Assembly (NCBI GenBank): GCA_023717605.1
Contig: JAMQPH010000601.1
Location: 1 to 42,415 of the forward strand
Origin: Pyrinomonadaceae bacterium
Lineage (GTDB): Bacteria > Acidobacteriota > Blastocatellia > Pyrinomonadales > Pyrinomonadaceae
Direction: 5' to 3'
Length of the DNA: 42,415 nt
The position numbers were made by a program, and so were the translations under genes. Positions 2,621 through 42,112 of the stretch are shown piece after piece. Under the pieces are notes generated by a model. That model was not told where the DNA came from and ran no database searches. It worked only from the letters and a program-made list of their open reading frames with translations. How positions within the stretch are numbered: the first letter of the stretch is position 1; every line of letters begins with the position of its first letter.

Positions 2621-2765
2621 GAGGTCGTTTTCATTTTCCATCTCTCATTTTCCATTTCCCATTTGTCATTTGGGATGCAATCCCTCTGTGGACCCAAAGG
2701 ATTCAAGTGTCAGCCAATGAAAAATGATAAATGGAAAATGAGAAATGGAAAATGAAGACGACCTC
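2621..2765. repeat. Intergenic inverted repeat, A/T-rich catttgtcatttcc-type arms
   Basis: gaggtcgttttcattttccatctctcattttccattt... versus reverse complement of ...aaatggaaaatgagaaatggaaaatgaagacgacctc. Confidence 0.85.
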
Positions 2766-26200: not shown

Positions 26201-27161
26201 CTACACGACCGCCTCGGGCCAACTGCGCTTTGCGGCCGGTGAGACAAACAAGACTTTCACTGTCCTGCTGACCGACGACCGCTCAGTCGAACCTGACGAG
26301 ACCGTTATTCTCACGCTGAGTAACCCGACCGGTGGCGTCGCGATCGGCAGCCCGAACGTTGCGACGCTGACCATCACCAGCAACGACACCTCGCCGCCTA
26401 CCTCGAACCCGATGGATGAGGCGCAGTTCTTCGTCGAGCGGCACTATCACGACTTTCTCAACCGTCAGCCGGACGCGTCTGGACTCGCTTTCTGGGTGGA
26501 CCAGATCACAAGCTGCGGCGCCGACACACAATGCCGCGAGATCAGGCGGTTCAACGTCTCGGCGGCTTTCTTCCTCTCCATCGAGTTTCAGCAGACCGGT
26601 TTTCTCGTTTACCGCGCCCACCAGGCGGCCTTTGACACGGGGCCCGCGCTCGGCTTCCGCGACTTCCTGCGCGACACGCAGGAGGTTGGTCGTGGCGTTG
26701 TCGTTGGCCAGGCGGGCTGGGAGCAGCAACTCGAGGCAAATACGCAGTCGTTCTTCAGCGACTTCGTCACCCCGCCACAGTTTCTTGTGCGCTACCCCTT
26801 GACGATGACGCCGGCGCAATATGTCGACGCGCTCAACGCGAACACCGCTGGGTCACTCACGCAGGCCGAGCGTGACGCGCTGGTGGCAGGGCTCACCGAC
26901 GGCACTCAAACGCGAGCAAGCGTGATGCGGGCGGTGGCCGAGGATGGCGACTTCCGCGCACGCGAGTTTAACCGGGCCTTCGTCTACATGCAGTACCTCG
27001 GGTATCTGCGGCGCCGGCCGAATGACCCGCCCGATATGAACTTCGATGGGTTCAACTTCTGGCTTGCCAAGTTGAATCAGTTCAACGGCAACTTCATCGA
27101 GGCGGAGATGGTCAAGGCATTCAACCTCTCGGGAGAGTATCGAGGGCGTTTCGGTCCGTAG
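20259..27161 (+). CDS. Giant modular surface protein: FG-GAP/VCBS-like + CSLREA + parallel beta-helix + 4x DUF11 + lamin-tail domain + Calx-beta + DUF4214
   Basis: 2300 aa; signal peptide; AADFDEDGMPDLL-type FG-GAP; NGLCSLRASIQEGNA (CSLREA); repeated ADLSITKTxSPxPVxxGGxxTYTITVTNxGP; VVISEFRTRGPGGVNDEFIELFN; YTVAENAGTALVTVTRTG...DYATSDGSA; FFVERHYHDFLNRQPDASGLAFWVDQI. Confidence 0.9.
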   Translation: MRNPSRHVAQRTARTLTLVCLAALLALAAYSWMPHIRQALAGGLMSSGRVGVKADHTPVQLRPAVEGDRSINFGASRDLQAEYVGPEDARRALESNSVRPTALVAADFDEDGMPDLLSGYAAPDGGGIITLRRGNVDAVYPNTAEALARKQRGEFVDLPFLAPAMVFELAVAPDFMEAGDFDADGHWDVVAANKGGTALHWLKGDGRGHLAEAVRVALPGAVTAFAVGEMNRADGLTDVVVGVESTDGAQALVFESPLGALRGEPEVFALPAPATAFGLGLLDEHYAYDLAIAAGREVSIVIGRDRKLSLTEEQRAGVQSARVSRHEFTAEVKTLAVGDFTGEGQTDVAVLTTDGVLQLMRRDARERLKSEPPAVTGGSQRGQNSPATAGGTDPDSQSPGASAWQVNIAMSVEGIAGESPQLSATSVSTRWEDDLLLLDGAGGPLRVLVADDETNYGKRKREGRENIPVSPRLRVSASLDGTSVAALPMRLNIDGLKDLVVLRAGQSEPSVLQSAPSATFEINTTNDTPDANPGNSVCADVNGLCSLRASIQEGNALGALLVLFVRADLILEIGLDTPLPDINVPITFDGSIANGQKVAIRDNQPINLPPPNPPPMAVFRIKWSDSTIRDAIINGAKDVAVLIDAPNAVIEGSHFGFQRGAITCTSADRNNRAIYNRAGGSGVVGGTNPFARNLFGCNTQDVFSEFGAGPLSIFGNFFGLDESGNVGMPTVNENLSISSANNRIGGPIVGAGNFGGRGSFFIRYFQSPDGTSGNLFQGNQVGLNAAGTAPLGYSQWAIDLNSAPDNTFGGTTPTERNVITRSAGGGINLGLGTTGTLVQMTYLGLGPNGVDPQPNANGVFVEAGATNNTIGGVVESARNLISANAAVTGGIGVLLDGNGNFVLGNYIGTDVTGNFDRGNGANGVLIQGSNDNLVWNNTLSATKGFGPIGGTGVTIVGGLRNTIRGNRIGTNAAGTQALGNARAGVFIFQNSFDNAVIDNLISGNGGFLAVEATDGTGNKVQGNFVGTDASGANPIPNANNGVAANIVGGLIPGQGNRIAFNGGVGVFKLGGEYILGNSIFNNGGFGITHTTFGVNTFPVITQAMTTGDTTTLQGTLNSQASTPHRIEFFANNECNAAAPNNFGEGQFFIGSTNVTTDANGTAAFNSTSTTAISAGKVVTATATQLDAMGNPVSTSSFSQCRQVTGSTTSADLSITKTDSPDPVAAGGEITYTITVTNSGPNGAGDVFVSDFFPVGTTYIEGSCSSTGGGRCGGFGGLRAISFDSLGSGASATITLRARVNASVASGTLLTNSAFVSSGITPDPDSGNNSASATTTTTAPSADLSITKTASPNPVAPGGDVTYTITVTNNGPSVTGDFVVTDTIPAITTFVSCAATGDGRCGTFGGTDINIFFRTLGIGASATITIVVRAPMSEGITFFNTATVTPSVTPDPNVNNNLATVGVTTTTFTPTPTPTPTPTPTPTPIPSPTPSADLSINKTGAPTPVAPDGDVTYTITVTNSGPDAADHVRVEDILPAGTLFDSCVATAGGVCGGMGNNRNVTFASLGAGAQAVITLMVRAPLAGGVMFTNTATVGSATFDPNPANNSSSVSITTAIAPTPTPTPTPIVTPTPTPTPTPTPSANLSIRKTASPDPVLPGANITYTITVTNNGPDAADNLVITDTVPAGTTFVSCANLFGPCVLMGNSVNASRPTLANVDTWAITVVASVNLSVSLGATISNQADVSSATPDPVPANNTATATTHTPPPSVVISEFRTRGPGGVNDEFIELFNRSAVAVDISGWRLMTANAAGATTTLVVINNGTTLPAGGHFLATNSGGYSGNVPGDQTYNADVPDDGGIALLMPGNVIADQVGMSLGTPFKEGTPLTPLIGTLNQSYERKPGGTGGNTQDTNDNQNDFLLRSPSDPQNLNSAIVPLVQFNAAIYTVAENAGTALVTVTRTGDASSAITIDYATSDGSASERSDYTTASGQLRFAAGETNKTFTVLLTDDRSVEPDETVILTLSNPTGGVAIGSPNVATLTITSNDTSPPTSNPMDEAQFFVERHYHDFLNRQPDASGLAFWVDQITSCGADTQCREIRRFNVSAAFFLSIEFQQTGFLVYRAHQAAFDTGPALGFRDFLRDTQEVGRGVVVGQAGWEQQLEANTQSFFSDFVTPPQFLVRYPLTMTPAQYVDALNANTAGSLTQAERDALVAGLTDGTQTRASVMRAVAEDGDFRAREFNRAFVYMQYLGYLRRRPNDPPDMNFDGFNFWLAKLNQFNGNFIEAEMVKAFNLSGEYRGRFGP
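21365..21437. repeat. In-frame inverted repeat, 26-bp arms (24/26)
   Basis: gtcagaaccgcctgcggtaacgggcg (21365-21390) versus cgcccgctaccgcaggcggtactgac (21412-21437), inside the FG-GAP region. Confidence 0.9.
21656..21693. repeat. In-frame copy of the ccgtgtc/ccgcgtc repeat in the giant ORF
   Basis: acatccccgtgtccccacgtctccgcgtctccgcgtcc encodes IPVSPRLRVSAS. Confidence 0.7.
24658..24728 (+). repeat. (ACGCCN)n hexamer tract encoding Thr-Pro linker
   Basis: TPTPTPTPTPTPTPTPIPSPTPS between the second and third DUF11 units. Confidence 0.9.
25105..25175 (+). repeat. Second (ACGCCN)n hexamer tract encoding Thr-Pro linker
   Basis: APTPTPTPTPIVTPTPTPTPTPTPS between the third and fourth DUF11 units. 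Confidence 0.9.
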
Positions 27162-27212: not shown

Positions 27213-27340
27213 CCTGAGTGTCCGATATGCTTCAGCTTGTTGTTGAGATTGGGAACTCTCAATTTGCGACGTTACGAGTAATGTCATTGGTCGAGTGTTG
27301 CCAATCTCGACGACAAGCTGAAGCATATCGGACATTCAGG
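27213..27340. repeat. Hairpin with 40-bp arms (37/40), 48-nt loop
   Basis: cctgagtgtccgatatgcttcagcttgttgttgagattgg (27213-27252) versus reverse complement of 27301-27340. Confidence 0.95.
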
Positions 27341-27896: not shown

Positions 27897-28016
27897 GAAT
27901 TTCGGATTGCGGATTTCGAATTTCGGATTTGAAGCGTGTCGTTACGAGCAAGTTTCAAATCTGATTCCAGATCACGAAGACAAAATCCGAAATTCGAAAT
28001 CCGAAATCCGAAATTC
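27897..28016. repeat. nuoA-nuoB spacer inverted repeat, 34-bp arms (33/34)
   Basis: gaatttcggattgcggatttcgaatttcggattt (27897-27930) versus reverse complement of 27983-28016. Confidence 0.95.
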
Positions 28017-33312: not shown

Positions 33313-33381
33313 AGTTTCGAGTTCCGAGTTTAGAGTTCCGAGTTCATCTTAACTCGAAACTCGAAACTCGAAACTCGAAAC
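33312..33381. repeat. Hairpin with aactcga-tandem arm
   Basis: agtttcgagttccgagtttagagttccgagtt (33312-33343) versus four-plus tandem copies of aactcga (33350-33381). Confidence 0.9.
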
Positions 33382-33389
33382 TGGAACGG

Positions 33390-37468: not shown

Positions 37469-37532
37469 ATTGCCGATTGCCAATTCAAGATCCTTCAATA
37501 GAAATTTCAATCGGCAATTGGCAATCGGCAAT
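37469..37532. repeat. Solo hairpin of the gccgattgccaatt family
   Basis: attgccgattgccaatt (37469-37485) and aattggcaatcggcaat (37516-37532), perfect 17-bp arms. Confidence 0.95.
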
Positions 37533-40428: not shown

Positions 40429-40962
40429 ATGCCTTTAGTCAAAGTCCCAAAGCCTAAGTTCATCGACAAGCTCAAGCGCTTCTTCATGGCCGATCTCTTA
40501 AAGGGTCTGGGCCTGACGCTGAAGTACAACATCGGCGCGGTTACTGATAGTGATTCAGTGGGCGGCAAGGGCATCTACACTGAGCAGTATCCCAAGGTTC
40601 GACCCGACGTGGCGCCGCGTTTTCATGGAGCGCCGAGATTGAACATGGATCCCGAAACGCACGACACGTTGTGCATCGCGTGCAACCTCTGTGCGATTGC
40701 CTGTCCCGAAGACTGCATTGACGTCCTGGCGATGGATGTAGAGATTGTGGTGGCCGGCAAGCCGCGCAAGAAAAAGGTGCTCGACGAGTTTATCTTCGAC
40801 ACCTCTCGTTGCATGTTTTGCGCGCTTTGCCAGGAAGCCTGTCCCACGTCCTGCCTGGAACTAACTCAAGACTTCGAGTTGGCTACCTATTCGCGCGCAG
40901 GATTTGTCTGGAATCGCGAGATGCTCGAGCAGGGACGGGAAACGGTCAAATACACGAGGTAA
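40429..40962 (+). CDS. nuoI: NADH-quinone oxidoreductase subunit I (2x 4Fe-4S)
   Basis: CIACNLCAIACPEDCID ... CMFCALCQEACPTSCLELT. Confidence 0.95.
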   Translation: MPLVKVPKPKFIDKLKRFFMADLLKGLGLTLKYNIGAVTDSDSVGGKGIYTEQYPKVRPDVAPRFHGAPRLNMDPETHDTLCIACNLCAIACPEDCIDVLAMDVEIVVAGKPRKKKVLDEFIFDTSRCMFCALCQEACPTSCLELTQDFELATYSRAGFVWNREMLEQGRETVKYTR

Positions 40963-40964
40963 TA

Positions 40965-41428
40965 CATTTCCGATTGCCAATTGCCGATTGCCAATTGGCG
41001 AGTTGTTGAACTAAACAGTTTACATGGACACCTCACGCCATGAACGCTGACGATTTAAAGAAACGCACGAAGCAGTTTGCATTAAGAATTCTAAAACTCG
41101 CTGCCGCCTTACCCAACACCGTCGAGGGTAAGGTTGTTAAAGGACAGTTGGTTCGAGCGGGCACTTCGGTGGGTGCTAATTATCGCGCGGCGTGCCGCGG
41201 CCGATCGACGGCCGAATTTGTTGCGAAGATCGGTGTCGTTGAAGAAGAAGCGGATGAGAGCGCGTTCTGGTTGGAGTTGATTATCGAGGCGACCCTGCTT
41301 CAAGCGAGCCGTGTTTTACCACTGCTCCGGGAAGCTAATGAACTAACGAAGATAATGGCACGATCTCGCATATCAGCTTCAAAGCGCGTTAGGCAAAATC
41401 GGCAATCGGCAATTGGCAATCGGAAATG
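40965..41428. mobile_element. Candidate 464-bp cassette: perfect 28-bp terminal inverted repeats flanking a four-helix-bundle ORF
   Basis: catttccgattgccaattgccgattgcc (40965-40992) is the exact reverse complement of ggcaatcggcaattggcaatcggaaatg (41401-41428); fills the nuoI-nuoJ junction. Mobility itself is inferred. Confidence 0.6.
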
Positions 41429-41429
41429 A
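41040..41429 (+). CDS. Four-helix-bundle protein (23S rRNA intervening-sequence / Avd-like family)
   Basis: DLKKRTKQFALRILKLAAALPNTVEGKVVKGQLVRAGTSVGANYRAACRGRSTAEFVAKIGVVEEEADESAFWLELIIEA; C-terminal RQSAIGNRK is encoded by the right inverted repeat. Confidence 0.88.
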   Translation: MNADDLKKRTKQFALRILKLAAALPNTVEGKVVKGQLVRAGTSVGANYRAACRGRSTAEFVAKIGVVEEEADESAFWLELIIEATLLQASRVLPLLREANELTKIMARSRISASKRVRQNRQSAIGNRK

Positions 41430-42112
41430 TCTTAACTGGCTGGGAAGCAGTCTTTTTCTGGGTTTTCTCGATCGCTGCTATCTTTGCAGGTCTCCTGACT
41501 GTGATGGCGCGCAACGCCGTCCACAGTGCCCTATTTCTGATCTCCTCCCTTCTCGCGGTGGCCGCTCTCTTTATCCTGCTGGGCGCGGAGTTCATTGCGG
41601 GCGTGCAGATTCTGGTTTATGTCGGCGGAGTGATGGTTTTGTTTCTCTTCGTCATCATGCTGGTCAACGTAGGCGCGGAAGAGCAGGGACGCTCCGAGAT
41701 TCTCAACAAGCCGCGTCAAGTTGCAGCGAGCCTGGTGGTTTGTCTACTGCTCGTGGCAGGTCTTTTATTTGCGATTAATACAGGCTATCAGGGTTTGCAG
41801 AAGCGAGACGAAGGCAAGTTGAGTGGATCTATCGAGCAGCGTCGTGCGCAGGATGAAAACCTGGCCAAGGGCGCCACGGGAACGAGCAGGATTACGACTG
41901 ACACGCAGCATGTAGGTAACAGTCTTTATAGATTTGCGTCGCTGCCGTTTGAAATTGCCAGCGTCCTTTTACTGGTCGCAATTGTCGGTTCCGTGATGCT
42001 AGCACGCACTCTTAAGCAGGAGGCCGCCGTGGATGACGTCGATCCTGAAGTGTTGCTGGCGAAAGTGGCTCAGGAAGCAGACCTGGCGGAGAACTTGCAA
42101 GAGCCGTCCTAG
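41426..42112 (+). CDS. nuoJ: NADH-quinone oxidoreductase subunit J
   Basis: [68 protein letters not shown]. Confidence 0.95.

Follow-up and report, generated by a model that had tools for sequence, protein, structure and literature searches.

A four-helix S23 gene flanked by inverted heptamer arrays in the nuoI-nuoJ spacer of a Pyrinomonadaceae genome as a probable copy of a compact mobile element

What occupies the spacer between nuoI and nuoJ in this Pyrinomonadaceae bacterium, and does it belong to the operon or to an element that moves? Within the window, as we call the whole 42,415-nt stretch of DNA analyzed, this spacer is taken up by a heptamer-armed S23 element (40965..41428, + strand) that separates nuoI (40429..40962, + strand, with two 4Fe-4S motifs) from nuoJ (41426..42112, + strand, PF00499). 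The initial annotation had described perfect 28-bp inverted arms bounding the spacer, and these were recovered as the mismatch-free outer part of a 32-nt arm pair with 97% complementarity. The left arm (40965..40996) consists of tandem GATTGCC/AATTGCC heptamers, its outer 28 nt forming the perfect complement of the right arm (41397..41428) with its inverted heptamers; TRF resolved both arms into tandem 7-mers (period 7). The coordinates also bear out that the left arm begins 2 nt past the nuoI stop codon (40960-40962) and that the right arm encodes the final nine residues of a 129-aa ORF (41040..41429, + strand), whose TGA overlaps the nuoJ ATG (41426) as ATGA, the right arm finishing on the same ATG. 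The ATGA overlap would allow translational coupling; in most other copies, the ORF stop precedes the right arm. Shifted-window controls, given below, exclude a chance origin of the arms. The inverted arms first noticed are therefore real, but the proposed ‘28-mer’ is not a unique unit and represents a piece of a heptamer repeat family. This family is dispersed over dozens of other places, which answers a check proposed in the initial annotation, with 102 matches of the arm repeat in the window’s own genome (G000), most of them ORF-less. An Rfam search of 36-42 kb returned no match, and the cassette does not lie within an rRNA gene. The genomes used here are partly draft or metagenome assemblies, with 909 contigs and 5.3% contamination for G000.

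The ORF belongs to the S23/IVP family. PF05635 was its sole Pfam match (E = 1.2e-14, 54.9 bits against a curated cut-off of 33.8), accompanied by TIGR02436 (E = 4e-21, 75.2 bits against a curated cut-off of 24), and an AlphaFold (AF2) monomer model showed four helices at a pLDDT of 96, in agreement with the four-helix bundle initially read from the letters alone. PDB entry 2rld matched the ORF with E = 3e-15; Foldseek with the model also returned 2rld (E = 3e-6, target TM up to 0.90), the closest folds being 2rld and 2gsc, then Avd (8ub7/4dwl). S23/IVP proteins are very common and, to our knowledge, their family has had no assigned role since rRNA intervening sequences (IVSs) were described around 1990. 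The Xanthomonas S23p has been reported as a pentamer. Among orthologues at the same nuoI-nuoJ site, dN/dS of the S23 gene was 0.07-0.11, so purifying selection on it is strong. Between G000 and its relative G010, synonymous divergence of this gene was 1.87, compared to 0.44 for nuoI, a difference that may reflect replacement by another allele. G000 contains about 14 S23 genes in total; a search of phages with one query gave no S23 match.

As a rule, the S23 genes that we examined lie between inverted arrays. In G000, inverted heptamer arrays flank most of them, with a different heptamer at each. Using a spanning inverted repeat with a score of at least 14 as threshold, we detected arms at 35/41 S23 loci in relatives, as opposed to 1/160 shifted windows and 2/205 swapped flanks; 29 of the 35 armed loci had period 7. 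A cross-phylum set, comprising the best 80 matches of a pattern search and covering Planctomycetota, Acidobacteriota, Proteobacteria, Clostridia, Bacteroidota, Chloroflexota, Cyanobacteria, candidate phyla and an archaeon, yielded arms at 55/80 S23 loci versus 1/284 controls, again mostly with period 7 (50/55). Around 30% of distant S23 genes carried no arms at this threshold, but since arms were scored ungapped, the armed fraction is a lower bound. The median arm spans about four heptamers, and all ten S23 genes retrieved from cyanobacterial plasmids were armed. When complementarity was ignored, a test for arrays on both sides found 7-periodicity in 44/118 genes and 0/220 controls, while periods 8 and 9 appeared at one gene each and the remaining periods at none. 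A few S23 subfamilies (L065, L068 and L079) have an arm period of 9 or 8 rather than 7; two 9-mer arms among these accompany similar proteins and share AGTCTAG. The cassette is one copy of a widespread, barely recognized mobile element. Within the open-access literature, to which our survey was confined (subscription journals and preprints fell outside its scope), we found no paper tying S23 genes generally to heptamer arrays.

Arrays of this kind could, in principle, have grown by polymerase slippage at hairpins, with S23 genes merely located there. Two near-identical elements (L288 and L298) differ in arm length by 7-nt steps, as slippage would produce, and heptamers have been reported as the most frequent long simple repeat of many bacteria (PMC4679880), TAACTGA arrays being described from Beggiatoaceae (PMC4679880). 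Slippage, however, yields direct arrays and not matched inverted ones flanking one gene family, and it leaves unexplained the subfamily-specific heptamers, the families common to many loci and the precise insertion with a 5-bp duplication described below. We disfavor this reading as very improbable.

The heptamer itself varies from copy to copy, with no fixed TIR sequence common to all copies of the armed S23 elements as there would be for classical TIR transposons or MITEs. A common NNNNRRK core (A 87%, G 85%, T 63%) runs through the 5' arms, with an information content of 4.06 bits, compared to at most 3.59 bits in shuffled heptamers, and the heptamer strand is fixed relative to the ORF, as random flips lowered this value to 3.03-3.21 bits. 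G exceeded C in the 5' arm at 79/90 loci, with the reverse at 11; the 5' arm in the window is C-rich and therefore falls in the polarity minority. Heptamer distance tracked protein distance (Mantel r = 0.24, p ≤ 0.0002), and a heptamer common within one mismatch was seen in 36% of pairs at least 60% identical versus 3% of pairs at 40-50% identity. Heptamers tend to be particular to an S23 protein subfamily. At the level of sequence comparison, this covariation shows co-inheritance at least; beyond that, we infer that an S23 protein may recognize the heptamer of its own element.

Heptamer hairpins also occur without an ORF. In the window they include one of the GATTGCC family in the nuoC-nuoD spacer (37469..37532), one with GAATTTC/GGATTTC that fills the nuoA-nuoB spacer (27897..28016), where close relatives carry other heptamers, and two further ones with AGTTTCG (33313..33382) and CATTTTC/CATTTCC (2621..2765). 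Across 1.46 Mb of sampled DNA, we identified 131 inverted heptamer pairs, with loops nearly all either below 180 bp or of 380-480 bp, the few longer ones representing pairing of neighboring hairpins. S23 was present in all loops of 180-600 bp that bore an ORF, several of the sampled regions having been chosen for carrying it. Hairpin density was 12-200 per Mb in sampled genomes with 9-17 S23 genes, and 320 kb of sampled DNA from four S23-poor genomes (0-2 S23 genes each) contained no heptamer hairpin. Two exceptions were G024, with 13 S23 genes and few hairpins, and G016 (88% complete), with hairpins at nuo junctions and no S23 gene detected. Of the ORF-less heptamers, 34% were identical to one linked to S23 in the same class, versus 2% when shuffled. 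In other phyla, ORF-less heptamers matched the S23 gene at their own locus in 8/11 cases, 4 of the 11 coming from one cluster, compared to 5% elsewhere. Copies of the hairpin at 27897 have arms in common but not loops. As a candidate explanation, faithful MITE-like copying of ORF-less hairpins was ruled out, as arms are conserved but loops are not, save at paralogous loci. Nested hairpins, in which an outer heptamer array encloses the array of another heptamer, were observed at L205:5648-5931 and at nuoD-nuoH of G011 (L244), as if new hairpins had inserted into the tips of old ones. The window further holds a non-heptameric, perfect-looking 118-bp inverted-repeat element next to nuoA (27219-27336), with copies of 75-90% similarity occurring dozens of times in G007 and several times in G000, which we class as a separate MITE-like family, and a segment of about 250 bp (26900-27160) with 66-79% similarity to many places in G000, G007, G009 and G004, probably another dispersed repeat or a repeated gene end.

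Comparison of nuo junctions in relatives revealed repeated changes of occupancy. Six genomes, including that of the window, share the same S23 element at nuoI-nuoJ (G000, G010, G009, G002, G012 and G015); G014 has a different S23 gene with another heptamer, and in nine genomes the junction is occupied by ORF-less hairpins, whose heptamers are of several kinds. The nuoI DNA of G012, with S23, and of G004, with an ORF-less hairpin of another heptamer, is just 8% different. The initial annotation had proposed looking for an empty site and a target duplication at this junction. A site without the element was indeed found, in G007 with its 28-nt gap, but no duplication is visible around the cassette in the window, and the nuoI-nuoJ copy looks long resident and not recently arrived. 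At nuoA-nuoB, heptamers differ among G000, G007 and G009, while nuoD-nuoH is empty (3-6 nt) in G000, G015 and G017 and occupied by the nested hairpin in G011. Hairpins might instead be retained for a host function, such as mRNA stability or the spacing of operon genes, with S23 as a passenger in their loops. That hairpins with different heptamers fill the same nuoI-nuoJ (16/21 relatives) and nuoA-nuoB (4/5) junctions would fit this idea. Yet relatives make do with spacers of 3-6 nt (nuoD-nuoH) or 28 nt (nuoI-nuoJ), nuoJ-nuoK has a hairpin in only 1/20, the sampled DNA of the four S23-poor genomes lacks hairpins, heptamers track the S23 subfamily, and plasmid sites without the element have normal genes, which together make a host function improbable.

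These plasmid sites, compared at the sequence level, directly support mobility of armed S23 elements. One cyanobacterial plasmid junction is empty in Nostoc linckia, Tolypothrix and Aulosira, with the sequence AAAAAGTAATTAACAAAT; in Trichormus variabilis and Scytonema it holds a full armed S23 element with GTAAT at both ends. Flanks of occupied and empty records are 97.5-98.3% identical, and the empty sites keep normal genes. GTAAT is a clean 5-bp target duplication at this one plasmid site, and TTCTA, with one base difference, is a probable second one at another junction. Over 88 loci, flanking direct words showed no excess (p = 0.14-0.25), so that target duplication does not yet stand as a general feature of these elements. 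Other pairs of empty and occupied junctions (cas6/cas4, TraM/hypothetical, integrase/hypothetical and nrdB/nrdA) were too diverged for their ends to be read. The occupied and empty plasmid sites, together with presence and absence at nuoI-nuoJ in close relatives, lend good support to the initial proposal that a minimal mobile element entered between genes of an operon. Separately, a Nostoc plasmid (C052; L297:749-900) contains a truncated S23 remnant with a left heptamer arm at the site of the Trichormus element, the remnant being fused close to the gene that follows. Cyanobacterial CRISPR operons are also affected: in Anabaena sp. 90 (L285) and Pseudanabaena galeata (L289), two S23 elements with different heptamers independently occupy the position between cas6 and cas4; the element is absent at cas6/cas4 of Dolichospermum, where flanks are 99% identical.

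The closest anatomical precedent is the 23S rRNA IVS of Coxiella burnetii, a segment of about 430 nt with an S23 ORF, a 28-bp inverted-repeat stem and three tandem GACAGAT heptamers in its 5' arm, which is cut by RNase III (PMC4990558); mobility of IVSs was put forward in 1993 as theory (according to PMC4990558). The cassette likewise places an S23 ORF inside an inverted-repeat stem. It differs from the IVS in adjoining protein genes, in having heptamer arrays in both arms, in being accompanied by many ORF-less relatives genome-wide and in its subfamily-specific heptamers. By analogy, the Coxiella IVS looks like a special case of an armed S23 element. As no 16S or 23S motifs matched among the sampled S23 loci, this link rests on the Coxiella paper. 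The same precedent lends weight to a rival in which the element acts at the RNA level: the arms would form an RNA stem, RNase III would cut the S23 segment from the operon transcript, rendering insertion between cistrons harmless, and the protein would bind its own RNA, with movement being either rare and incidental or through RNA/cDNA. Also in its favor, the elements occupy transcribed operon spacers, the numbers of S23 and reverse-transcriptase genes are weakly correlated (rho = 0.42), and the ORF fold matches Avd (PDB 4dwl and 8ub7; four helices, target TM 0.81-0.82), including Avd inside a DGR ribonucleoprotein, although identity to the ORF is 11-12%. Arm mismatches on the sense strand, however, had no G-U excess over A-C (70:86; 18:18 in nuo hairpins), thus giving no sign of RNA pairing as a conserved feature, and some elements are oriented against their neighbors (nrdB/S23/nrdA). 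We consider an RNA-level element rather unlikely. Reverse transcriptases were set aside as mobilizers, their counts being just weakly correlated with those of S23; unlike in a diversity-generating retroelement, whose accessory protein is Avd, no reverse-transcriptase match fell on the window’s contig (C624), and RVT_1 matches in G000 lie on C780, C64 and C59.

The closest working model is provided by REPINs (PMC3116915). As an analogy only, REPIN/RAYT systems share with the cassette inverted doublets that form hairpins, dispersed ORF-less copies and repeats matched to one protein family, whereas the cassette protein is a four-helix S23 protein and not a Y1 (PF01797) HUH transposase. A Y1/RAYT protein as hidden mobilizer was also considered. 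RAYT counts correlate with S23 (rho = 0.58), yet the palindromes at RAYT loci are of REP type and lack 7-nt periodicity, and RAYT was therefore set aside as a separate system. The RAYT (Y1_Tnp) genes inspected (L255-L274) have inverted palindromes of REP/BIME type that are long and in many cases contain GCTA/TAGC. In the P6b region of the Nostoc trnL intron, heptanucleotide hairpins of Class I (TDNGATT) and Class II (NNTGAGT) replace each other, and the authors considered mobile elements possible (PMC4476775). Cyanobacterial trnL/STRR repeats resemble our hairpins in being inverted and heptameric, in the same kind of core (GAT/AGT) and in repeated replacement by another heptamer; no protein has been linked to them there, while S23 is a candidate partner here.

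We judge it probable that the feature between nuoI and nuoJ is one copy, complete with its ORF, of a compact selfish element that is REPIN/RAYT-like but uses an unrelated four-helix protein. Its layout would be a (NNNNRRK)n heptamer array, the S23 four-helix gene and an inverted heptamer array. The S23 protein, a pentamer if family precedent holds, may bind its own element’s heptamer hairpin as a structured nucleic acid and promote its spread, acting in cis on its own copy and in trans on ORF-less hairpins, in the manner of RAYT proteins with REPINs. Because the four-helix fold shows no nuclease domain, cutting and joining would be carried out by host or other enzymes. Spacers between operon genes and the tips of rRNA helices would be places that tolerate hairpin insertion.

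A broader generalization, which we advance tentatively and hold to be somewhat short of probable, is that PF05635/TIGR02436 proteins are sequence-reading factors of mobile hairpins built from 7-nt units and spread across phyla. Each subfamily would read its own heptamer, possibly with one unit per pentamer subunit, and would keep populations of ORF-less hairpins independently of DDE, HUH and reverse-transcriptase elements; 23S rRNA IVSs and cyanobacterial heptamer hairpins would then be members. The heptamer arrays and their link to protein subfamilies give the S23/IVP family a testable function, supply natural protein/DNA pairs for binding experiments and tie together three puzzles: rRNA IVSs, cyanobacterial heptamer hairpins and intergenic heptamer repeats. 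If this is true, many intergenic hairpins read as regulatory would be copies of mobile elements.
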